Shown piece after piece: positions 2,627 through 64,000 of a DNA stretch of 64,000 bases; position 1 is the stretch's first letter, and each line of letters opens with the position of its first letter. Position numbers and translations under genes: made by a program. The notes under the pieces are model-generated. The model worked only from the letters and a program-made list of their open reading frames with translations, had not been told where the DNA came from and ran no database searches. Source of the DNA: an uncultured Methylocystaceae bacterium (GTDB lineage Bacteria; Pseudomonadota; Alphaproteobacteria; Rhizobiales; Beijerinckiaceae); NCBI GenBank assembly GCA_937870755.1, contig CALMZV010000145.1:2501-66500 (forward strand), written 5' to 3'.

Positions 2627-3727
2627 GTGCGCCGCCCGAACGAGATCGATTTCTGGCGAGGTTTCGCGCTCGTCACCATCTTCGTCAATCATGTGCCGGG
2701 CATCGCGTTCGAGCGGTTCACCACGCGCAATGTGTCGATTTCCGACAGCGCGGAGCTGTTCGTGTTTCTCGCAGGCTGGTCGCTGCGGTTCGTGGTGCGC
2801 GCGGCGGGCCCCGCCCTGTCGCGGTTCGACCTGTCGGCGCGGCTGTTCGGCCGCGCCTTGCAGATCTACGCGGCGCAGATTCTCATCACCATGATCGCGC
2901 TGGCGCTGATCGCCGGCGCGGCGCTGTGGCTGGAGCAACCGTTCCTGCTCGAATGGCACAATGCGGCCGCGGTGTTCGAGGCGCCGGTTCATGCCCATGT
3001 CGGGCTGGTCGCGCTCACCCATCAGCTCGGCTATTTCAACATCCTGCCGCTCTATGTCGTGCTGATGCTGGCCGCGCCCGCGTTGGCGCTGCTGGACCGC
3101 GTTTCGCCCTGGTTGCTGTTCATCGTTTCGGGCGCGGTGTGGGCGGGGGCGCTTGCGGCCGGCGTCAACCTGCCGACCTGGCCGGTGGAAGGGCGCTGGT
3201 TCTTCAACCCGCTGTCGTGGCAGTTCATCTTCGTCCTGGGCTTTCTGGTCGCGCGGCCGGACGCGGGGCCCGGCGCGCTGGTGCGGCGCGCCCCGGTCCT
3301 GCTGCGCGTGCTGGCGCTGCCCGTCGTCCTGGCGGGAGCGGTCGCAGCCTTCCATGTCTGGTCGCCCAACCCGGCGCGCGTGCCCGAGCCGCGCCTGTTC
3401 TTCCTGTTCGACAAGACGTTTCTGTCGCCGGCGCGCCTCGTCCAGTTTCTGGCGCTGGTGGCGCTGGTTTCCGGGCTGTGGCCCCGGCTGCCGAAGGCGT
3501 TCGCGCCGGTTTCAGCCTATTTTTCGCAGCTTGGCCGCAATTCGCTCAACGTTTTCTGCGTAGCGTCGCTGTTAAGTCTGGCTGCGCAGATCGGCCGCTT
3601 CGTCTGGGGCGCCGGTATGATGGTCGATACGGTCGTGCTAATGATCGGTCTGGCGGGAATGGGGTTCGGCGCGTGGATTTCGGAATGGCGCGAAAGATCG
3701 CGAGCCGGATCGCCGGCGCGGCCTTGA
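2627..3727 (+). CDS. opgC: OpgC-family membrane acyltransferase
   Basis: The 366-residue integral membrane protein starts (GTG) with RRPNEIDFWRGFALVTIFVNH, the arginine/histidine-containing first helix typical of OpgC and related acyltransferase-3 proteins. About ten hydrophobic segments follow, with conserved AELFVFLAGWS and LGRNSLNVFC motifs. OpgC proteins transfer succinyl or other acyl groups onto osmoregulated periplasmic glucans; the acyl group and acceptor here are not known. The last 43 bases overlap the start of a secreted SGNH hydrolase gene, so the two are almost certainly translated together. GAGAG lies shortly before the GTG. Confidence 0.8.
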   Translation: MRRPNEIDFWRGFALVTIFVNHVPGIAFERFTTRNVSISDSAELFVFLAGWSLRFVVRAAGPALSRFDLSARLFGRALQIYAAQILITMIALALIAGAALWLEQPFLLEWHNAAAVFEAPVHAHVGLVALTHQLGYFNILPLYVVLMLAAPALALLDRVSPWLLFIVSGAVWAGALAAGVNLPTWPVEGRWFFNPLSWQFIFVLGFLVARPDAGPGALVRRAPVLLRVLALPVVLAGAVAAFHVWSPNPARVPEPRLFFLFDKTFLSPARLVQFLALVALVSGLWPRLPKAFAPVSAYFSQLGRNSLNVFCVASLLSLAAQIGRFVWGAGMMVDTVVLMIGLAGMGFGAWISEWRERSRAGSPARP

Positions 3728-4482
3728 GCCTCGGCTTCCTGTCCGCGCCGGGACTGATGGCGCAGGACGCGCCGCCGCTCAGCCCGCAATGCCAGGCCCC
3801 CTCGGCCGACATCGCCGCGCCGGCGCCGCTGCCAAACGTCGCCGCCGCGCTGGCGCAACGCAGGATCATCCGCATTCTGGCGATCGGTTCGTCGTCCACC
3901 TACGGCATCGGCGCCACATCGCGCTCGCGCAATTATCCCGCACAGCTGACGGCCATTCTCGAACGCACGCTCAAAGGGGTGGACGTGGAGATCGTCAACC
4001 GGGGCGTGTCGGGCGAGGTGGCGGCGACGACGGCGGCGCGGCTGCGCAGCGAGGTGGCGCTCGAAAAGCCCGATCTTGTGCTCTGGCAACTGGGCACCAA
4101 CGATGCGCTCGCGCGCGTGCCGGTGGAGGAGTTCGAGCAGACCGTGCGCTCCACCATCGAATGGTTGAAGGACAGCCAAATCGACGTGGCGCTGGTCGGC
4201 CTGCAATACACGCCGCGATTCTCGCGTGACGAGAATTATCGCGCGGTCCGCGACGCCCTGCTGCGCATCGCCTCGTCGGAAAACATCCTCTACGTGCGGC
4301 GCTTCAGCGCCATGCAGTTCATCGCGCAGGCGCGCAACGCGCCGCCCCAGGTGACGAACGACGACCTGCATCTCAACGATCTCGGCTATCGCTGCATGGC
4401 CGAGCACATCGCCCACGCCGTCATCGCCAATCTGTTCGTGCGCCGCTTCCGGCCGAATACCGACGCAAACGGCGGACCGTAA
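3685..4482 (+). CDS. Secreted SGNH/GDSL-type hydrolase
   Basis: A 265-residue protein with an N-terminal signal peptide (basic MARKIASR, a hydrophobic stretch, then GLMAQDA as a likely cleavage region). The SGNH blocks are visible: block I AIGSSSTYG with nucleophile S70 (GSS replaces GDS), block II NRGVSG with a glycine at 110, block III GTND at 137-140 with the oxyanion asparagine, and block V DDLH with D226 and H229. It should be a periplasmic esterase or acetylhydrolase. ATG 3685 was chosen; a GTG at 3673 is an in-frame alternative. The start lies inside the opgC-like gene, which suggests a shared acyl-glycan substrate. Confidence 0.8.
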   Translation: MARKIASRIAGAALSLGFLSAPGLMAQDAPPLSPQCQAPSADIAAPAPLPNVAAALAQRRIIRILAIGSSSTYGIGATSRSRNYPAQLTAILERTLKGVDVEIVNRGVSGEVAATTAARLRSEVALEKPDLVLWQLGTNDALARVPVEEFEQTVRSTIEWLKDSQIDVALVGLQYTPRFSRDENYRAVRDALLRIASSENILYVRRFSAMQFIAQARNAPPQVTNDDLHLNDLGYRCMAEHIAHAVIANLFVRRFRPNTDANGGP

Positions 4483-4538
4483 CGCGCGCCGTCGCTCGCG
4501 CGATTCCGCTTCCGGTTCCTGCGTCGCTCGAAAACGTT

Positions 4539-18087: not shown

Positions 18088-18247
18088 GTGGCGTCCCCCA
18101 ATCGGCCAGACTTCACAGTTGGGCGTCGACCCGGTCCGTTTTCAGCGCAGCAAAATGACGCAGGCGGGCGCTCCCGAAGCCGCGCGCCGTCCATCACCAG
18201 CCGGGACTGGCGCCACGGACGGTTTCGCCCTAAATTACGTCGGCGGC

Positions 18248-18404
18248 GCTGCGGGATGCGTGTGGATCTGTATTCCCGGGGCCTTATCGATCCTTAAGGG
18301 AGCTGTCCCTGTCCTCGCCCGTGGGCCTGGGCAATACGGCGCCCACCTACGTTGTAGGTTTCCCGGGGTCGATGTCCCACGGTCTTTGTGGCCCGCAGCT
18401 TTTT
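18248..18404 (+). ncRNA. ssrS: 6S RNA (SsrS)
   Basis: The position between zapA and 5-formyltetrahydrofolate cyclo-ligase is the canonical 6S locus. The ends form an 8-bp closing stem (GCTGCGGG 18248-18255 with CCCGCAGC 18392-18399) followed by TTTTTC. Inside, TTCCCGGGG near 18273 and again near 18360 flank the structure, ATCGATCC (18286-18293) pairs with GGGTCGAT (18366-18373), and GTGGGC/GCCCAC form an apical arm. 6S RNA mimics an open promoter and sequesters housekeeping RNA polymerase in stationary phase. Confidence 0.87.
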
Positions 18405-31969: not shown

Positions 31970-32044
<75 letters not shown>

Positions 32045-33657: not shown

Positions 33658-33692
33658 ACAAAAAGAAAGCGGCCGCCTGCAAGCAAGCGGCC
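33658..33692 (-). terminator. Second, duplicated sRNA terminator copy
   Basis: The same hairpin sequence recurs at 33692-33671, 35 bp further along the minus strand, followed by GCTTTCTTTTTGTG. The 34-bp unit including the T-tract is repeated almost exactly, so it is a recent tandem duplication and a back-up terminator. Confidence 0.7.
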
Positions 33693-33693
33693 C

Positions 33694-33727
33694 AAAAAAG
33701 AAAGAGGCCGCCTGCAAGCAAGCGGCC
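33694..33727 (-). terminator. First sRNA terminator copy
   Basis: On the minus strand GGCCGC and GCGGCC form the ends of a hairpin at 33727-33706, followed by TCTTTCTTTTTT. It would end the small RNA at about 33695. Confidence 0.75.
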
Positions 33728-33839
33728 CAAGTCTTGGGAGGAAACGCCCAAAGAGGGCATATTCAATCTATCTCGCAACGCACAAATTGCAAGTGAGTCC
33801 TTAGTCTATATCGCCCTTAAAGTGGCCGTCCTGGAATTT

Positions 33840-45912: not shown

Positions 45913-45989
<77 letters not shown>

Positions 45990-54515: not shown

Positions 54516-57500
54516 CTAAGCGGTTGCGCCTCCCCCAGAGCGGCGACGCACCCGATCATAGACCTCACGAGCCAGATGCATCTCGGCGATATCGCGAAAC
54601 TGGTTGTCGCTCATGACCTTGTTGAAGATGTCCTCGTTGCCCTCCATGCGGGCGATAAACAAGTCCATGAGTTCGCGCCGAAAGAAGCTGGAGAACCCCT
54701 CAAAGCTGTTAGCGTGAGCGGCCGCGACGATGTTTTCCTTGCGCTCCGCCGTCGCACGAACTTGATCGAAGAAAAGTTGGTCTGCCTCGGTGAAGTCCGT
54801 TCCAAATCGCTCGTTGAGTTTCCCGACAAGCGTCGAGAGGTGGACGTTCATCTCCTTCTCGCCAGCGGTCCCCACGTCCGAAGGGCCTTTCAAGGCTTCG
54901 GTCTCGCCTTCGTTCAGCCTGATCGCGCCGCTTGTCATCTGCTGAAGCCGGAAGAACTTCAGCGCCACGTCGTCATCCAGCGTGAACTTCGTGCCATCGC
55001 CGGCACTCGGAAGCTTCGGGGAAAGATTGCGCAGGAACGCGTACAAGCGTTCCAGACCCTCGTCGAAATAGGGCATGATCTGCGATAGGAAGGCGTAAAG
55101 CTTGCAGAACGCAGTGATTTGGCCCCGAAACTCGTTCTGCGTCTCCTCCTCCGCTTCCTTGAAGCGTGCGACGCACCGATCAAGCACAGCGTTCATCAGG
55201 CGATTGTCGTGTCCGCTGGTGTCACGCTTCCCCTTGAACCAAAGGGCTGCGAAATCCGTCACGTCGTCCGGCGTCGCGATGGCGTGCTGAAAAAGCTTGT
55301 GCTGGAGATCGTTGAGCTTGTGCGGATCGACGCTCTCGCCGATTGGCGTGGTCTCGTAATAGGGCTTGAACGCTTTGAAGATATCTTCCTCCTCGTTCCG
55401 GAAATCGAGAACGAAGGTCCTTGTCTTACCCGGCGCGATCCGGTTCAGGCGCGATAATGTCTGGACAGCCTGAACCCCGGCCAAGCGTTTCACGACATAC
55501 ATCGTCTGAAGCAGCGGCTGATCGAAGCCGGTCTGATACTTGTCCGCGACGATGAGGACGCGGAACTCCTCGCCGTCGAAGCGTTCCGGCAATTCCCGCT
55601 CCGGCAAGCCATTGTTCATGCCGACTTCGGTGAAGGACGAGCCAGGATCATCGGGGTCTTCGACCGTTCCGGAGAAGGCGACCAGCGCCCGAATGCCGGT
55701 GTATCCCTTCTCGCGAATGTAGCTGTCGAACGCCTTCTTGTACTTCACCGCGAGCAGCCGCGATCCGGTCACCACCATCGCCTTGGCGCGGCCGCCGAGC
55801 TCGTGCATGACGCGCAATCGAAAATGTTCAATGACGACCGCGACCACCTGCTCAACGTTCACCGGGTGGATTTCGAGGAATTGCCCGAGCGCCTTGGCGG
55901 CCTTTTTCCTCGGCACTTCCGGATCGTCCTCGATCTGTTTCACGAGCCCGAAGAAGCGTTTGTAGGTGACGTAGTTCTGGAGCACGTCGAGGATGAACCC
56001 CTCCTCGATCGCCTGCCGCATTGAATACTCATGGAACGGGGCTTCGCCGCTCGGGCCGGGTTCGTCGAACACCGCCTTGGTCTTGAACTTCGGCGTCGCC
56101 GTGAAGGCGAAGAAGCTGAGGTTGGGCTGGCGGCCGCGCTGCATCATCTCCCTGCGGATGTTGGCCTTCGCCTCTTCGGTCAGATCGTCGTCCTCCTCGT
56201 CGCTGGCCTGGCTGGCGATCGCGTCGGCGATGCCGTCCTTGTTGAGGATGCCCTTGAGCGCCGAGACGGTTTCGCCGGACTGTGAGGAATGCGCTTCGTC
56301 GACGATCACCGCGAAACGCCGGTCGCGCGTTGCGATCTCGACGCCCTCGCCCTTCTGATCCAACGTGCGCAACGCCTGGCTGATGAAGGGAAACTTTTGA
56401 ATCGTCGTGATGACGATTGGCGTCCCGTTCGCCAGAGCCTTGGCCAGTTGCTGGGTGTTCTCGTCGATCTTCTCGACGACGCCCGTCTTGTGCTCGAACT
56501 GATAGATCGTGTTTTGAAGCTGCTGGTCCAGCACCCGGCGGTCGGTGATGACGACGACCGAATGGAAGACCTTCTCGTCGCGCGCGTCGTGCAGCGAGGC
56601 GAGGCGATGGGCGAGCCAGGCGATGGTGTTGGATTTGCCCGATCCCGCCGAGTGCTGAACGAGATAGTTGCGGCCCGAGCCATTCGCCCCGGCATGGGCC
56701 ACGAGCTTCCGCACCGCGTCGAGCTGGTGATAGCGCGGGAATATCATGCCTTCCTTGCGCACGGTCTTGAGGCCTGTGGGCGTCTCGACCTGCCGTTCGG
56801 TCGCCTCCAGATGCATGAAGCGTTGCAGGATATCGAGCAGGCTGTCGGCCTGTAGCACCTCATCCCACAGGTAATGCGTCTTCCAGTTGTCGGCGACGGG
56901 CGGGTTGCCCGCGCCGAATTGGTGGCCGCGATTGAAGGGCAGGAAAAATGTGTCCTCGCCCTTCAGTTGCGTCGCCATCCAGACTTCGTCCGGGTCGACG
57001 GCGAAATGGACGAGCGCGCGCTCCTTGAAGCGAAACAGGAGATCGCGGCCGTCGCGATGCTTCCGGTATTGCGCGACGGCGTTTTCCGCGCGCTGGCCGG
57101 TGAGCGGATTCTTCAGTTCCACCGTCACGACGGGCAGGCCGTTCAGGCTCAGCACCACGTCGATAACGCATTTGCGCTTCTCGCCATCCGGCCGCCTCAG
57201 CACGTCGGAGACGAACTCGACCTGACGCGTGATGATGAAGCGATTGGCCGCGTGGCGGGCCGCGGCCTCGGGGTTCATGCCGGAGTTGGGGCGGAAATAG
57301 GCGAGCCGCAGTTGCTTGCCGTAGCATTTGAAACCATGCCGGAGCACGCCGAGCGCGCCCTTGGACGCCAGCTCTTTGGTGAGGCTGTCGAGCACGGTCA
57401 CCTCCGTGCGCTCCTTCAGCATCGCTTCGAGTTCGCCCCAGCGCGCGAGCTGGCTCGTCTTGAGGAACGCGATGACATCCTTGGGAAAGAGCGCCGTCGC

Positions 57501-57599
57501 AGCGTCGAACTCCTGCGGCCTGCCCTTGGTGAAGCCGCCGCCATGGGTCAGGCCGTATTCGATGGCGTGCTCGAAATCGCGTTCGGTATGGCCGGGCAT
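54516..57599 (-). CDS. hsdR: Type I restriction enzyme, R subunit (HsdR)
   Basis: The 1027-residue motor/nuclease has an N-terminal PD-(D/E)XK nuclease (D147 in CVIDVVLS, E161-L-K163 in TVELKNP), Walker A (HSAGSGKS, 316-323) and DEAH (434-437, VIVDEAHSSQSG). Further helicase motifs follow, including FTATPK and VADKYQTGFDQPLL. It cuts unmodified DNA after translocation. It starts 3 bp after the small nuclease-like gene and closes the operon. Confidence 0.94.
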   Translation of the reverse strand: MPGHTERDFEHAIEYGLTHGGGFTKGRPQEFDAATALFPKDVIAFLKTSQLARWGELEAMLKERTEVTVLDSLTKELASKGALGVLRHGFKCYGKQLRLAYFRPNSGMNPEAAARHAANRFIITRQVEFVSDVLRRPDGEKRKCVIDVVLSLNGLPVVTVELKNPLTGQRAENAVAQYRKHRDGRDLLFRFKERALVHFAVDPDEVWMATQLKGEDTFFLPFNRGHQFGAGNPPVADNWKTHYLWDEVLQADSLLDILQRFMHLEATERQVETPTGLKTVRKEGMIFPRYHQLDAVRKLVAHAGANGSGRNYLVQHSAGSGKSNTIAWLAHRLASLHDARDEKVFHSVVVITDRRVLDQQLQNTIYQFEHKTGVVEKIDENTQQLAKALANGTPIVITTIQKFPFISQALRTLDQKGEGVEIATRDRRFAVIVDEAHSSQSGETVSALKGILNKDGIADAIASQASDEEDDDLTEEAKANIRREMMQRGRQPNLSFFAFTATPKFKTKAVFDEPGPSGEAPFHEYSMRQAIEEGFILDVLQNYVTYKRFFGLVKQIEDDPEVPRKKAAKALGQFLEIHPVNVEQVVAVVIEHFRLRVMHELGGRAKAMVVTGSRLLAVKYKKAFDSYIREKGYTGIRALVAFSGTVEDPDDPGSSFTEVGMNNGLPERELPERFDGEEFRVLIVADKYQTGFDQPLLQTMYVVKRLAGVQAVQTLSRLNRIAPGKTRTFVLDFRNEEEDIFKAFKPYYETTPIGESVDPHKLNDLQHKLFQHAIATPDDVTDFAALWFKGKRDTSGHDNRLMNAVLDRCVARFKEAEEETQNEFRGQITAFCKLYAFLSQIMPYFDEGLERLYAFLRNLSPKLPSAGDGTKFTLDDDVALKFFRLQQMTSGAIRLNEGETEALKGPSDVGTAGEKEMNVHLSTLVGKLNERFGTDFTEADQLFFDQVRATAERKENIVAAAHANSFEGFSSFFRRELMDLFIARMEGNEDIFNKVMSDNQFRDIAEMHLAREVYDRVRRRSGGGATA

Positions 57600-57602
57600 C
57601 GA

Positions 57603-58223
57603 TCAAATCTCCTCAACGGAAGCGTTTTGGAGCGCGATCAGCGACTGCCCATTCACTTCGTCAAAGTGATAGTAACGAATAGACGGATCGGCTGAGAGCT
57701 GTCGCCGCGCATCGACAAATTGCCCGGGCGCTGTGTTGTCAGCGAAGACGAATTTGCGAACCTTGAGTGTCTTGCGTTCGCCTGTGTAGTGCTCGATCAC
57801 CCTCTTGAGGCTCTGGCACCATGCAACGCCCGCCTTAAGCTGCGGCACGATGGTGTTGTGATCGAGGCTCTTGGACTTGAATTCGATACAATCGGCGTGC
57901 AGCGCGCGCCCGCAGACATGGAAGATCACGAAATCACAGCGTTTCGACCATGGCTTCGCTCGGTCATCAAGGAAGTGAAAGAGAGGTGGCTTGTTGCCAT
58001 TGCCACTCTTCTTGCCTCCCCCAACTTCGTCATGATCCAGTTTGAAGGCTATGCCCGGCCCGGCAAGCCCAAGGCTGATAATGCGGTCGAGGCGCTTCAC
58101 TCCGTCTTCAGCGAAATACTTCTCCCGCAACTCGACCGCACCGCCTGTGCCGTCATGGACAATATAGGCTGCATTCAGATACGCCCGCAGGTGACCGAGA
58201 TATGTCGCTGCGTCGAGGCTCAT
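57603..58223 (-). CDS. PD-(D/E)XK-like accessory protein within the RM operon
   Basis: A 206-residue protein that I cannot assign to a named family. It shows a nuclease-like pattern: D97 (RCDFVIFH), then 16 residues on E114-F-K116 (DCIEFKSKS), then Q128-L-K. Before it is a basic glycine-rich loop (GGGKKSGNGN). The start overlaps the hsdS stop by 4 bp and the stop lies 3 bp before hsdR, so it is an integral fourth member of the operon. Possible roles are a second nuclease, an anti-restriction control protein or an assembly factor. Inference only. Confidence 0.7.
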   Translation of the reverse strand: MSLDAATYLGHLRAYLNAAYIVHDGTGGAVELREKYFAEDGVKRLDRIISLGLAGPGIAFKLDHDEVGGGKKSGNGNKPPLFHFLDDRAKPWSKRCDFVIFHVCGRALHADCIEFKSKSLDHNTIVPQLKAGVAWCQSLKRVIEHYTGERKTLKVRKFVFADNTAPGQFVDARRQLSADPSIRYYHFDEVNGQSLIALQNASVEEI

Positions 58224-59506
58224 TGTAGCCCTTCAATCTGGCCTGTGACGGCAGCGGTGATGAGTGCGGAGCGATACTCGACCAGTTTGTCGACTGCGTC
58301 GCCGATCTTCCGGAATACCTTGTCGATCTTTGCCAAATCTGACTTGATATGCTCGCAAATTGAGATCTGGGTTTCGACCGGCGGCACGCAGATTTGCAGG
58401 CCAGCGGCAATCGGCTGGTAAATTGTTTTGTGTGTCGATCCGTTCGTGATTTCGGCAAATTTCTGGTGCATGGCTCGAAACATGAAGAGCAAAAATTCTG
58501 GCAATAGCTTTCGCCCGCAAATCCAATTCCAAAAATCCTGAGTAGTCGCCATCGGATAAGGCATAATGCCACTAAAGCCGATGGATGCCGTGCGAGAGAA
58601 AATCACAGTGCCAGCTGGTAGTAACTCTGCCGCACTGTTCGCCAAACCCAATTCGCTGATTTTCTCAGCAGTCTCTTCAATGTAAAGACGTGTGCCGTCC
58701 CGTAGTTGCCACACGTCAGACAGCGTGAACCAAGGGATCGTGCAGTCAGCCCAATACTCTGCGACCGTTCGAGAGGGCGTATGGCCGGTCTTCATCGTTG
58801 CGAAGCGCCGAATGTTACCAGCCTCCCAATGCGCCGGGATGTCCCCAAGCCAGTCGATGCCGCTGGGTTTCATGGCGACGGCGGGGTTGAGGCCCTTGGT
58901 GACGGCCTGCGTGATGATGGCCTGCCGCTTCTCGGCCAACCGCTCCAGCAGCGCCTGTTTCTTTGCGATCAGCGCATCGATCTGCGCCGTCTTCTCATCC
59001 AGAAACGCCGCGATGCGCTTCTGGGTGTCGAGGGGTGGGAGGGGCGAACGCCAATCCTTGATGAAGCGTTCTGGCACACGCTTTTGACCGCCAGCGCCAA
59101 GCATCTCCGCTTCGCCGATGTTGCGAAAATCATGGGTAATCGTGATGTAGAAAAGAAACTTCGTGTCTAACGTAGGATGCGGTCGGAGGACGTGCAGTTC
59201 TGTCGTGCCAAAGGCGACGCCATTCGTAAGGCACTGAGCAAGCGCTCCCTTGCCGTTCTCAAAGCATGGTGTGATCTTCGCGATGCAGATGTCGCCGTCA
59301 CGAAAATATGTATATCCGGTGTAGACATCAGCAATCGGCTTCGTGTCCTCCAACCGCAGCCCGCCGAATTCGCCCACCGCATCCATTGGAACGAACGAAA
59401 CCTCTGTGTCATCTGGCAAGGTCACCTCTGACTTGACGGGGTTTGTTTTGACATCAAACCGAAGCCGCCGATGTGACCATTTGTGTGGCAGCATCCGCGC
59501 GCTCAT
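58220..59506 (-). CDS. hsdS: Type I restriction enzyme, specificity subunit (HsdS)
   Basis: The 428-residue DNA-recognition subunit has two target-recognition domains separated by the conserved coiled helix PPLDTQKRIAAFLDEKTAQID with KRQAIITQAVTKGLN, followed by SGIDWLGDIPAHWE. A second conserved helix block (ICEHIKSDLAKIDKVFRK) lies at the end. It sets the recognition sequence of both methylation and cleavage. The target cannot be read from sequence. The start overlaps hsdM by 4 bp. Confidence 0.92.
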   Translation of the reverse strand: MSARMLPHKWSHRRLRFDVKTNPVKSEVTLPDDTEVSFVPMDAVGEFGGLRLEDTKPIADVYTGYTYFRDGDICIAKITPCFENGKGALAQCLTNGVAFGTTELHVLRPHPTLDTKFLFYITITHDFRNIGEAEMLGAGGQKRVPERFIKDWRSPLPPLDTQKRIAAFLDEKTAQIDALIAKKQALLERLAEKRQAIITQAVTKGLNPAVAMKPSGIDWLGDIPAHWEAGNIRRFATMKTGHTPSRTVAEYWADCTIPWFTLSDVWQLRDGTRLYIEETAEKISELGLANSAAELLPAGTVIFSRTASIGFSGIMPYPMATTQDFWNWICGRKLLPEFLLFMFRAMHQKFAEITNGSTHKTIYQPIAAGLQICVPPVETQISICEHIKSDLAKIDKVFRKIGDAVDKLVEYRSALITAAVTGQIEGLQ

Positions 59507-61692
59507 CCTACCAGCCCTTCGAGCAGCCCGGCGATCTCACTTTCCAGTGCCGTGATGTCGCGCTCAATCTCGGCCAAAGGGCGCGGCGGCTTGTAGACGT
59601 AGAAATGACGGTTGATGGGAATTTCGTAGCCCACCTTGGTCTTGGCATAGTCGACCCAGGCATCGGCTACATGCGGCAGCACCTCGGCGAGCATATAGGC
59701 GTCGATGGCGGGTTTCATGGCCGCAACCAGCTCATCATTTGGCGCTTCCGGTCCGAAGGGCATGGGCAGCGGCAACCTTGTGCCCGGCGGCAGCGGGATG
59801 TTTTCGGTGTCGCGCAACTCGCTGTCCGCCTCCGGGCGGCCCTTGGCGTCGGTGCAGACATCCGCCTCGGGGTCTCGCTCACCGAGTGCGGCGAAAATCG
59901 CCTTCTTGATCGGCCCCAGCAGCTTCATGCCCCGGCGCTTCGCCGCCGCATCCAGATCGTCCTCGAACCTGTCGCGGTTCAGGTAACGCCCCTTGGGCGC
60001 GAGTGTCGCCAGCAGCCCCCGGATGGCCTCCTGCTCCTTGCGGCCTTCCTCCTCCTCGGCGGCGATGGCCTTGCCATCCTTCCGCTTCTTCGATTGCGCC
60101 AGCGCGGCGAAGGCCGATTGCTCGTCGAGCCTGGCGATGCGCTCCGGCGTCGCCTCGAAATTCAGCTTTAGCGGGCGCTCGACCGTCACCTTCAGGAAGC
60201 CGAATTCCCTGTTCTCGAAGATGCGGGAGACGACGCGCTCCTCCCAGAGGTTCGCCTTCTCGTCCACGCAGACGCGCCGCTTCTCGCCATCAGTGAAGTT
60301 GCCGTAGAGTTCCACGAGATCGCGGATGTGGTCATCCGTCAGCTCGTTGCGCTTGTTGTTCAAGCTCTTCTTCATCTTGGCAAAGAAGCGCGTGCCGTCG
60401 ATCAGCTGCACCTTGCCGCGCCGTTCCTCGGCCTTGCGGTTCGTGACAAGCCAGACATAGGTGAAAATGCCAGTGTTATAGAAAAGCTGGTCAGGCATCG
60501 CGACGATCGCGTCGAGCCAGTCATTCTCGATGATCCAGCGCCGGATGTGCGACGGTCCGGAGCCCGCATCGCCGCTGAACAGCGGCGAACCGTTGAAGAC
60601 TATGGCGATCTTGGAGCCGGGCTTGTTCTCGTTGCCGGCCTCGAAAGGCCGCATCTTCGAGATCATATGCTGGAGGAAGAGCAACGAGCCGTCGTTGATG
60701 GCCGGAAGCCCCGCCCCGAAGCGCCCGGAAAAACCTTTTGTGTCGTGCTCCTTGGCGACGACCTTCTGCTGATCCTTCCACTCGACGCCGAAAGGGGGAT
60801 TGGCCAGCATGTAATCGAACTTGCGGTCTTCGAAGCCGTCCTTGGTCTTGCCGTCGCCGAGCGTGTCGCCCAGCACGATGTTGTCGGTCGGCTCGTCCTT
60901 GATCAGCATGTCGGCGCAGCAGATCGCCCAGGATTCGTCGTTGTATTCCTGTCCGTGCAGCCCGACCCCGCCGATGCGGCTGTTCTGCGCGCGGATGGTC
61001 TCTTCCGAGACCGAGAGCATGCCGCCCGTCCCGCAGGTCGGGTCGTAGATGTCGCAGTAGAAGCCCTCCCGATAGAGCTTCTCCTCCCCCGTGTAGACGA
61101 GGTGCGTCATGAGGCGGATCACCTCGCGCGGCGTGAAGTGGTCGCCCGCTTCCTCGTTGGCCTGCTCGTTGAATCGCATCACCAGATGCTCGAACAAGTA
61201 CCCCATTTCGAGGTTGCTGATCGCGTTGGGATGCAGATCGACTTCGGCCATCGCCTTGACGACGTTGAAAAGGCGGTTGCTTGCGTCGAGCTTCTCGATC
61301 TGTTCGCCGAACTTGAACTTGGCGAAAATCTCGCGGGCGTTATCCGAGAAGCCGTTGATGTAGGCGACGAGGTTCGGCGCGATGTTCTCGCTGTCGCCGA
61401 GCAGCTTGGCGAAGGTGTAGGGGCTCACATTGTAAAGCGGCTGGCTTCGCCCTTGGTCCACCACCTTGGTGAGGAGGCGCGGAACGGCGTTTTCCGGCGT
61501 CTTGGACGTTATCAGCTTGGCATGCTGCGCAAGCACTGCGTCCTTCGTCGGCTCCAGAACGCAGTCGAAACGGCGCAGCACCACCATTGGGAGCATTACG
61601 AGTCGATACTGAGGAGGGCGGTAAGGCCCGCGCAGGCGGTTCGCGATCTCCCAGATTTTCCCGGCGATAGCGTTGTGGCGGTCGGTCAGCAA
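59503..61692 (-). CDS. hsdM: Type I restriction enzyme, methyltransferase subunit (HsdM)
   Basis: The 729-residue N6-adenine methyltransferase has the SAM-binding motif I (DPTCGTGGML, 217-226) and catalytic motif IV (NPPFG, 298-302). The N-terminal helical domain precedes HFTPREV at 185-191. The C-terminus (about residues 530-729) is longer than in the shortest HsdM proteins and contains a basic-acidic coiled segment (KKRKDGKAIAAEEEEGRKE). It is the first gene of hsdM-hsdS-X-hsdR. Confidence 0.94.
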   Translation of the reverse strand: MLTDRHNAIAGKIWEIANRLRGPYRPPQYRLVMLPMVVLRRFDCVLEPTKDAVLAQHAKLITSKTPENAVPRLLTKVVDQGRSQPLYNVSPYTFAKLLGDSENIAPNLVAYINGFSDNAREIFAKFKFGEQIEKLDASNRLFNVVKAMAEVDLHPNAISNLEMGYLFEHLVMRFNEQANEEAGDHFTPREVIRLMTHLVYTGEEKLYREGFYCDIYDPTCGTGGMLSVSEETIRAQNSRIGGVGLHGQEYNDESWAICCADMLIKDEPTDNIVLGDTLGDGKTKDGFEDRKFDYMLANPPFGVEWKDQQKVVAKEHDTKGFSGRFGAGLPAINDGSLLFLQHMISKMRPFEAGNENKPGSKIAIVFNGSPLFSGDAGSGPSHIRRWIIENDWLDAIVAMPDQLFYNTGIFTYVWLVTNRKAEERRGKVQLIDGTRFFAKMKKSLNNKRNELTDDHIRDLVELYGNFTDGEKRRVCVDEKANLWEERVVSRIFENREFGFLKVTVERPLKLNFEATPERIARLDEQSAFAALAQSKKRKDGKAIAAEEEEGRKEQEAIRGLLATLAPKGRYLNRDRFEDDLDAAAKRRGMKLLGPIKKAIFAALGERDPEADVCTDAKGRPEADSELRDTENIPLPPGTRLPLPMPFGPEAPNDELVAAMKPAIDAYMLAEVLPHVADAWVDYAKTKVGYEIPINRHFYVYKPPRPLAEIERDITALESEIAGLLEGLVG

Positions 61693-61775: not shown

Positions 61776-61916
61776 ATGCCGAAACCCGTCCTCTACCGAA
61801 CCCCTCAAAACCTTCAGAACTCGCTTTCGAAGGTTTTGAAGGCGGTCGAAACAGGGGATACGATCACGGTGCAGGAGGAAAATGATCAGGTCTTGGCCCT
61901 TGGGTTAATCGTGTAG
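61776..61916 (+). CDS. Tiny Phd/YefM-like protein (possible orphan antitoxin)
   Basis: A 46-residue frame whose central part, LQNSLSKVLKAVETGDTITV, resembles the core of prevent-host-death antitoxins (helix, then a GE-T(V/I)-like strand). The end VLALGLIV would be the last strand. The DNA-binding first helix is weak, and no toxin gene follows. The last 31 bp overlap the convergent primase gene. It may be a remnant or a chance frame. Confidence 0.3.
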   Translation: MPKPVLYRTPQNLQNSLSKVLKAVETGDTITVQEENDQVLALGLIV

Positions 61917-64000
61917 ACCGTCCGCGGGCGACCGCCGGTTCGGATCGTTCGCTCCGCAAGCCAGTCGAAATCGACGAGCAGGGAAAGCGAGCCCGCGACC
62001 TGATCACGGTCAGTCAGGTGCGACCAGTCCTTCTGGTGCACGTCACGGAGGGTGAAACCGTCCTCAAGATCGCCGTTGCGGATGCGAGACAGGATCGCCT
62101 TGGCGGCCGTGACCTCGGATTGCGCTCCCGCCGCGTAACACCGCCTGGCGTGAGCCTCGGCATAGTCAGCGATGGCGATCGCACGCCGCAGCGCTCCGGA
62201 CGCGACAGCGCCAGCCGCGCCATTGGCCAGATGAGAGGAAAGAGCCAACGATGGAACCAGCTTGCGAAATTTCGCGAGGTGGCTCTCCAGCGCCGGCGAA
62301 AGGTCACCTGCACGGATGCGGCGTTCAAGGTCGAGACGCCAAGCATCGAACATTTCTTGCGCGCCCGGGTCGAACCGCAGGTAGGCGATAGAGTCAAACT
62401 GATCGACCGTGGCTCCGGCAGACGCGGCTGTCAGTTCATTCAAGCGATCGAACGCCGCCCATGCCCTTTGGCGGGCATCGCTGTCCGGATAGCGATCAAC
62501 GTTCCGAAACTGCGGGGCTTGATCAGGCCAAACCATAAGACCGAAGCGCTGGAGCAGCCCGTCGTCACCCGCGCCCTGAGAGCGACGCACGTAATCCGCG
62601 AGCCGACCCGGCTGCGTCGACCCCAGAACAGACAAACAGACCGCGTCGATATGCGTTTGACCTCGCAAGATGCGATCGAAAGTGTAACCGGAGGTGCCGT
62701 TCCACCCGGTCAGATAGAAGCCGCGCGCGGAAGCGTTTCGCTCATCGTCGAGGCTCTTGAGAAGCGACACCAGTTCGTCGCGAAACGCCAGCACGCCATC
62801 GGGATTATGCGCCATCGCCAAACCAAGCGCTTCGTACGTGGTGTCATTCAAGACGTAACGGAGCATGCGGGGCGACTCCGGCGCATCGCCAAACGACGCG
62901 TCGTCGAAGTTGCGCCCCTCCGCGAAGGCCTTACGAGCCCGGCGCGCGTCCGCTTCAGACTTGATCTTGTAAATCTCCTGAGCTCGCTGATGCTCTTTCA
63001 GCGCTTCCTCATTTTTCTGACGCGCCAAAGCCTCAAGACGGGTCAAAGGCTTCAGTGCCTCTTTCATCGCCGGGCTCTTCATCGCGCCCGGACGGCCAAC
63101 GATGCAGCCCCATAGATTGGCGACTTCCATCCAGTCCGTCTTGCGCTGGGGTCGGATCGCCACCTTGCGCCCGATCAGGGAACCGATTGCGACTAAGGCG
63201 GCGACGCCGATGAAGTCGAGCGGACACTGCATGCGGTCGGCGATATCGGAAGCCCATGCGGCGAGAGCCTCGGGAAGAAATCCATCTTCGAAGACCGGCA
63301 CAGGCGAGAGGTTGTCTGGTAGCGATCTCGGCTCCGGCCACTCACGCCCGTCGTCCGCTTTCTCCTCAGCGTGGACGCGGGCTCCATGCTCGTTCCAACC
63401 CAGCGTCTCCGGCTCCGCGCCCATGCAGTCGCAAAGCCAGTGAGCGGCGTCCTTCACGTCAGCGCGGCCGCCCCATTCCTGGACCAGCGAGATCGGCGTG
63501 CGCTTACCCATGCGCGGGTCGCCCATGTCGTGGATGCCGAAGTCGCTGATGCCGCCGGTCTTGCCGGGGACGATGCTGATGTCTTCTTCGAGGTTTCGTC
63601 CGAGGCTGTCGGACGAGACACGATAGCCGCCGGTGCCGGGTTGATGGACTGCCTGAGGGAAGAGCCTTAGCACCCACGACGACAGGCTCTCCATCGCCGC
63701 GTCGTTGACGCACCGGAAGAAGTCCTTTCCACGCTTTGGCTTCTTGCGCTTCGCCGCGCCGGCACGCGGCGTCGCTCTGGGATCGCGCCCGCCGAAGAAG
63801 TTCCACGGCTCCTTGGGCGGCTCGGTCGCGTCAGGCTGCGCCGCGTGGGCGGCAACCTCTGCGGCCGCCTGAAACTCGGCGGCGCGCGCAATGAGCGCGG
63901 CGATGGTTTGCGGCGCGGGCTCGATGCTGGTTGGCGCACCGGGGAGGTGCTCGCCGGTGATCGTCAGATACCTCTGCTTGCCGTAAATCTCGACATGAGC
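61886..64000 (-). CDS. Primase-polymerase/DUF3987 protein, N-terminus beyond the window
   Basis: The frame is open to the right edge, leaving 704 visible residues. The first about 40 (EIYGKQRYLTITGEHLPGAP) match the end of a bifunctional primase-polymerase (Prim-Pol) domain. A basic linker leads to a primase-C-like region (RCVNDAAMESLSSWVLRLFP) and then DUF3987, with its P-loop-like GRPGAMKSPAMKEAL and the Walker-B-like AFRDELVSLLKSLDDERNA. Such proteins are replication enzymes of integrated plasmids, ICEs and phages. It marks the right part of the window as mobile. The ATG at 63694 is internal, not the true start. Confidence 0.85.
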   Translation of the reverse strand, partial: AHVEIYGKQRYLTITGEHLPGAPTSIEPAPQTIAALIARAAEFQAAAEVAAHAAQPDATEPPKEPWNFFGGRDPRATPRAGAAKRKKPKRGKDFFRCVNDAAMESLSSWVLRLFPQAVHQPGTGGYRVSSDSLGRNLEEDISIVPGKTGGISDFGIHDMGDPRMGKRTPISLVQEWGGRADVKDAAHWLCDCMGAEPETLGWNEHGARVHAEEKADDGREWPEPRSLPDNLSPVPVFEDGFLPEALAAWASDIADRMQCPLDFIGVAALVAIGSLIGRKVAIRPQRKTDWMEVANLWGCIVGRPGAMKSPAMKEALKPLTRLEALARQKNEEALKEHQRAQEIYKIKSEADARRARKAFAEGRNFDDASFGDAPESPRMLRYVLNDTTYEALGLAMAHNPDGVLAFRDELVSLLKSLDDERNASARGFYLTGWNGTSGYTFDRILRGQTHIDAVCLSVLGSTQPGRLADYVRRSQGAGDDGLLQRFGLMVWPDQAPQFRNVDRYPDSDARQRAWAAFDRLNELTAASAGATVDQFDSIAYLRFDPGAQEMFDAWRLDLERRIRAGDLSPALESHLAKFRKLVPSLALSSHLANGAAGAVASGALRRAIAIADYAEAHARRCYAAGAQSEVTAAKAILSRIRNGDLEDGFTLRDVHQKDWSHLTDRDQVAGSLSLLVDFDWLAERTIRTGGRPRTVYTINPRAKT

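Follow-up and report, generated by a model that had tools for sequence, protein, structure and literature searches.

Two kinds of described system come close to the gene examined here, a fourth open reading frame (ORF), called X, in a type I restriction operon of an uncultured Methylocystaceae bacterium (contig CALMZV010000145.1, assembly GCA_937870755.1). The stretch analyzed, hereafter the window, comprises 64,000 nucleotides (nt) of that contig (positions 2,501 to 66,500, forward strand), and coordinates are those of the window. One kind is the pair formed by an ATP-binding cassette (ABC) ATPase and a PD-(D/E)XK-type nuclease, as in PD-T4-4 (Vassallo 2022, PMC9519451) and in PDC-M47 of PADLOC. 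In WonAB of Vibrio cholerae, which has been called similar to PD-T4-4, an OLD-type ABC ATPase is paired with a PD-(D/E)xK effector; WonB needs the WonA ATPase to be toxic, and its activation shuts down translation while the chromosomal DNA is not degraded (PMC12137116). The other kind is an effector whose gene lies within a type I operon. PrrC, the fourth gene of the EcoprrI operon, encodes a latent effector under the control of HsdMSR (PMC12707154, PMC3506569); it is a HEPN anticodon nuclease (ACNase) with an ABC-NTPase domain of its own (PMC3710099). In enteropathogenic Escherichia coli the DarTG2 module lies between hsdS and hsdR, a site proposed to be a recombination hotspot for defence systems (PMC12255303), and it was proposed in 2012 that restriction-modification loci repeatedly exchange toxin genes (PMC3506569). 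In the light of these papers, that type I operons can harbour an embedded effector is a known principle.

Where does X belong? Profile comparison identifies it as a remote homologue of PD-T4-4_B and PDC-M47B, the nucleases that are paired with OLD-type ABC ATPases. It differs from them in having no ATPase nearby and in sitting solely between hsdS and hsdR. The operon has the order hsdM-hsdS-X-hsdR, all on the minus strand:

59503-61692, minus strand: hsdM, type I DNA methyltransferase subunit, 729 residues (Pfam N6_Mtase, 6.8e-54; HsdM_N, 1.1e-21)
58220-59506, minus strand: hsdS, specificity subunit, 428 residues (Methylase_S, 1.8e-22; PADLOC Specificity_I, 5.5e-97)
57603-58223, minus strand: X, predicted PD-(D/E)XK-type nuclease, 206 residues (conservation, residues, model and homology)
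57933-58037, minus strand: X residues 63-97, including the predicted active-site residues D63 and D97 (coordinates reckoned from the start of X, 58223)
57840-57884, minus strand: X residues 114-128, with E114-F-K116 and Q128 (invariance in homologues)
54516-57599, minus strand: hsdR, restriction/translocase subunit, 1027 residues (HSDR_N, 1.1e-12; SWI2_SNF2, 1.3e-28; T1R_D3)

HsdM also matches the PADLOC MTase_I model PDLC03029 with 877 bits. With HsdM, HsdS and HsdR encoded in one operon and the HsdR nuclease motif present, this is a type I restriction-modification system. A first-pass annotation of the window had described this gene order with junctions of at most 4 bp, and the ORFs and Pfam families bear it out: hsdM/hsdS and hsdS/X each overlap by 4 bp (ATGA), and the X stop codon is separated from the hsdR ATG by 3 nt (TGA TCG ATG).

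The kinship of X emerged when PADLOC models were run on the 42-member X family. PD-T4-4_B matched 41 of the 42 members (best 1.5e-14) and PDC-M47B all 42 (best 1.9e-7). An X profile found PD-T4-4-like nucleases with E-values down to 1e-11 (in a small set), PDC-M47-like ones more weakly, and enterobacterial PD-T4-4_B proteins at 22-26 bits. When the X family was aligned with the ABC-linked nuclease family using hhalign (97.9% probability, E 3.9e-13), D63, D97 and E114-x-K116 of X fell opposite D57, D77 and E94-x-K96, which are invariant in the latter. X is thus homologous to the nuclease subunit of both PD-T4-4 and PDC-M47, is similar to it in size and has the same D, D, E-x-K set; the resemblance is distant and lies mainly in the catalytic core. 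The genomic settings differ. In the other genomes sampled, the PD-T4-4/PDC-M47-type nuclease gene has an ATPase gene directly adjacent wherever the flank is long enough, and the ATPase also adjoins the nuclease in four annotated records from plasmids or phages, whereas seven ATPase queries found no OLD-type ABC ATPase near X in any X locus. For this reason X is not counted among the PD-T4-4 systems. WonAB resembles X in general class, as far as literature description goes, and WonB serves here as an analogy; WonB depends on WonA, whereas X is without any WonA.

Three ATPase/nuclease pairs may be mentioned. PD-T4-4-type pairs make up most of two small plasmids (L162 and L164, 4-5 kb, from E. 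coli and Klebsiella), and another lies beside a CI repressor in Vibrio phage 1.202.O (L161). All three are annotated merely as an AAA ATPase and a hypothetical protein.

Scanned alone, X matches no Pfam or NCBIfam family, and PHROGs yielded no convincing hit; a sequence search of the PDB returned weak LapB rows alone, which were judged to be chance. It nevertheless carries the residue constellation of the PD-(D/E)XK superfamily (a conserved D and a (D/E)-x-K). The AlphaFold2 model, a confident one (predicted local distance difference test score 86, predicted template modelling score 0.85), is alpha/beta and compatible with a PD-(D/E)XK fold, with predicted strands at 98-104 and 107-116 and a helix at 122-147. 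In the model D97 and the E-x-K motif are on adjacent strands, E114-x-K116 at the end of its strand and Q128 in the helix that follows. The top VIA-align rows are PD-(D/E)XK enzymes (BsmI, FokI, Nt.BspD6I, Can2/Card1) at low Z of 5-6, and a Foldseek comparison with viral models gave no clear match. Residues, fold model and remote homology support the assignment of X as a PD-(D/E)XK-like accessory nuclease.

A scan of GTDB species genomes gave 45 loci with 32-65% identity to X. Searching 385 genomes of the class with an alignment profile gave three matches, all within hsd operons; this survey added one new X genome, and another match was a locus already in the set (L044). Five further loci, all hsd-linked, were found on viral contigs, and a tblastn search with X in plasmids and phages gave no match. 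With the window this makes 52 loci, 51 of them beyond the original. Going by record titles or tree labels, the hosts include Pseudomonadota (several classes), Acidobacteriota, Nitrospirota, Nitrospinota, Myxococcota and one Phycisphaerae bin. All 52 loci adjoin hsdS and/or hsdR, with the order M-S-X-R wherever the contig allows, and no stand-alone X was found among them or in the 385 genomes. Across these several phyla the X loci are confined to one HsdR clade.

X is a real, conserved gene. Of 46 aligned homologues, 45 have D97, E114 and Q128 and 44 have K116, and D63, D97, E114, K116 and Q128 are invariant in the 42-sequence alignment and in six further homologues; the D97, E114-x-K116, Q128 pattern pointed out in the first-pass annotation is therefore not due to chance. 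The ratio of nonsynonymous to synonymous substitution rates (dN/dS) is 0.03-0.06 in eight close pairs, and X is under strong purifying selection. Low dN/dS and invariant catalytic residues led us to reject the notion that X is a degraded remnant lacking conserved D/E/K residues. Nor does X replace a dead HsdR nuclease, a possibility also considered: the HsdR nuclease site (D147, E161-L-K163, Q177-Y178) is invariant in all 44 X-associated HsdRs. Since that site is intact, X would be a second nuclease, one of the possibilities listed in the first-pass annotation.

How firmly is X tied to its operon? In an HsdR tree, most of whose rows were collected by way of X, the X-bearing rows cluster, with five changes against 19 when labels are shuffled. 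X distances correlate with those of HsdR and HsdM (r=0.87), more weakly in the inner clade (0.51 and 0.43). An early tree implying one gain and one loss of X was superseded, its loci having been picked by X similarity. HsdR-led searches, unbiased towards X, were made in two classes and the operons then retrieved; close HsdRs were defined as those with 57% identity or more, found without reference to X and with the window excluded (n=7). X was no longer taken to be a constant part of the clade once the sample from the second class proved to lack X at all four further close HsdRs, which brought the changes to five. X has also been lost. In L088 (G262, 3171-4520), whose HsdR is 71% identical to that of the window, an in-frame internal deletion has left 23 X codons between intact hsdS and hsdR, a natural control. 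In L035, X is a pseudogene (a stop codon, E-L-R in place of E-x-K, and a frameshift), and hsdM, hsdS and hsdR are open. X has thus been lost at least twice with hsdMSR intact: X always accompanies this Hsd family, and the Hsd system does not need X.

What takes its place? The HsdR-led searches gave 29 X-less operons having both hsdS and hsdR; the slot between them holds other content in 17, is empty in 11 and is unclear in one. The contents include Septu PtuAB, Kiwa KwaAB, GmrSD, DarT/macro, DUF4268/PDC-S11, DUF1016/YhcG, DUF3800, an ImmA/IrrE and DUF4411 pair, an OLD-type ATPase/TOPRIM-like protein, a D12 methylase and unknowns. DUF1016/YhcG and DUF4268 are like X in occupying this slot, and YhcG_C is a PDDEXK domain, but they are separate sequence families and X matches neither. 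DarTG2 shares the position; it is a toxin-antitoxin pair, whereas X stands as one gene with no antitoxin. These results qualify two earlier statements. X was said to match no accessory gene known in type I systems, which holds in that it has no Pfam match but not in that it is homologous to PD-T4-4/PDC-M47 nucleases and that its slot has published occupants (PrrC, DarTG2). It was also put forward as an undescribed defence variant. This is fair for an ATPase-free, hsd-bound subfamily, and the open-access literature searched contained no account of X in hsd operons; the embedded effector as such had been described.

Several of these operons hold additional genes. ImmA/IrrE-type and DUF4411 proteins are encoded between X and hsdR in L018 and L019, and the same pair is present without X in L140; it looks like toxin-antitoxin-like cargo. 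A 1281-residue protein with RecD-like helicase domains lies between X and hsdR in L042 (9615-13460). Three hsdMSXR operons on predicted viral contigs have, respectively, a patatin after hsdR (L154), a Fic gene between X and hsdR (L155), and a SIR2-like protein and an unidentified 584-residue protein after hsdR (L156). A 392-residue ORF with no Pfam match occupies the hsdS-hsdR slot of L096 (11482-12660) and is a candidate effector. Finally, a RhuM-family gene lies between hsdM and hsdS in L028 (6600-7656), and the N-termini in L141 and L142 look similar; the hsdM-hsdS gap is a second cargo position in these operons.

Because X lacks an ATPase partner and is found solely with HsdMSR, HsdMSR probably controls it. 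We accordingly favour, at roughly even confidence and by analogy with PrrC, the view that X is an ATPase-free, PD-T4-4_B-type latent back-up effector, held and licensed by HsdMSR and carried in the interchangeable hsdS-hsdR slot. X would be made together with HsdMSR and held latent on the complex, then released when the complex engages foreign DNA or when a phage anti-restriction factor disables it. Once free, X would act as a back-up effector causing growth arrest or abortive infection, on the model of PrrC with EcoprrI, and the HsdMSR assembly would fill the licensing role that the ABC ATPase has for the relatives of X. The data show the operon, the conservation of X, its active-site residues and homology, the lack of an ATPase nearby, the behaviour of the slot and the dispensability of X; binding to Hsd subunits, the trigger and the substrate are what we infer here. 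Tentatively, X may further be a fourth functional subunit of a distinct type I subtype, in which a PD-T4-4_B-type nuclease exchanged its ABC-ATPase sensor for HsdMSR and is licensed directly when HsdR recognizes or translocates DNA, or when phage proteins inhibit HsdR, with a different target specificity.

Several points weigh against the back-up effector. Like PrrC, X is embedded in an hsd operon, but the analogy goes only part of the way, since X lacks the NTPase domain that PrrC has; X, a small protein of PD-(D/E)XK type, has no Pfam match to HEPN/ACNase or ABC-NTPase domains, which places it outside the PrrC family proper. Comparison with solved structures gives only weak matches for it (Foldseek E of 0.04 at best), so that the PD-(D/E)XK assignment rests mainly on residues and homology. 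The nuclease activity, toxicity and Hsd-subunit binding that an effector would need are predictions. Nor is X an obligate partner of this HsdR, since it is intact beside only two of the seven close HsdRs, deleted beside one (L088) and replaced by other contents or nothing beside four. Lastly, in Rhodovarius lipocyclicus (L014, 5126-6410) an IS3-type transposase pair, identified by ORF reading, splits hsdM near codons 273-287, and hsdS, X and hsdR stay open; unless the insertion is polar, this fits poorly with a toxin masked by HsdM alone.

The likeliest alternative is that X is a second DNA-cleaving subunit, recruited by translocating HsdR, which helps to destroy invading DNA and has no suicide role. 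Intact PD-(D/E)XK-type residues, exclusive linkage to one HsdR clade, distances that co-vary with those of HsdR and HsdM (r=0.87) and translational coupling in the operon would all be expected of such a subunit, but HsdR already has an intact nuclease site of its own (44/44), and hsdMSR persists intact where X was deleted (L088) or became a pseudogene (L035). That X can be lost, and that unrelated toxins and defence pairs fill its place in sister operons, suggests separable cargo. WonB, likened to X by description only, stops translation and leaves chromosomal DNA undegraded (PMC12137116). We regard this alternative as rather unlikely.

Is X instead an independent defence gene, a passenger in the hsd slot that shares the promoter and has no functional contact with HsdMSR? 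The slot does admit unrelated self-contained systems (Septu, Kiwa, DarTG). X, however, has no antitoxin or ATPase of its own nearby, is restricted to one HsdR clade, and lies in hsd operons at 52 of 52 loci with no stand-alone match in 385 genomes, so that we think a mere passenger improbable. Very improbable is that X, instead of being an effector, regulates or restrains HsdR (for example in restriction alleviation), a role that the first-pass annotation had allowed: X directly precedes hsdR with a 3-nt gap, but its invariant catalytic residues point to enzymatic activity, close HsdRs have unrelated neighbours or none, and the two lineages that lost X by deletion (L088) or decay (L035) keep hsdM, hsdS and hsdR intact.

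As to the surroundings, there is weak evidence for a promoter-like pair at 61744-61717, directly upstream of hsdM. A DUF3987 gene (61886-63694, minus strand) is also directly upstream of hsdM; followed in the genome contig, its frame runs on past the window to a length of 853 residues. The operon may be located in a mobile island; no island borders were found by synteny comparison with a congener. Elsewhere the window holds a 6S RNA (18243-18397, plus strand), an mmgR/suhB small RNA (33691-33765, minus strand), tRNA-Val(gac) (31970-32044, minus strand) and tRNA-Arg(cct) (45913-45989, minus strand).

X connects two separate lines of research, that on the ABC-ATPase/nuclease pairs of abortive infection and that on type I restriction, and is a compact natural case of a nuclease effector that appears to have switched sensor. 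In one HsdR family, the gap between hsdS and hsdR is a place where effectors are swapped, both known (Septu, Kiwa, GmrSD, DarTG) and unknown, and a systematic reading of this slot could reveal new defence effectors.

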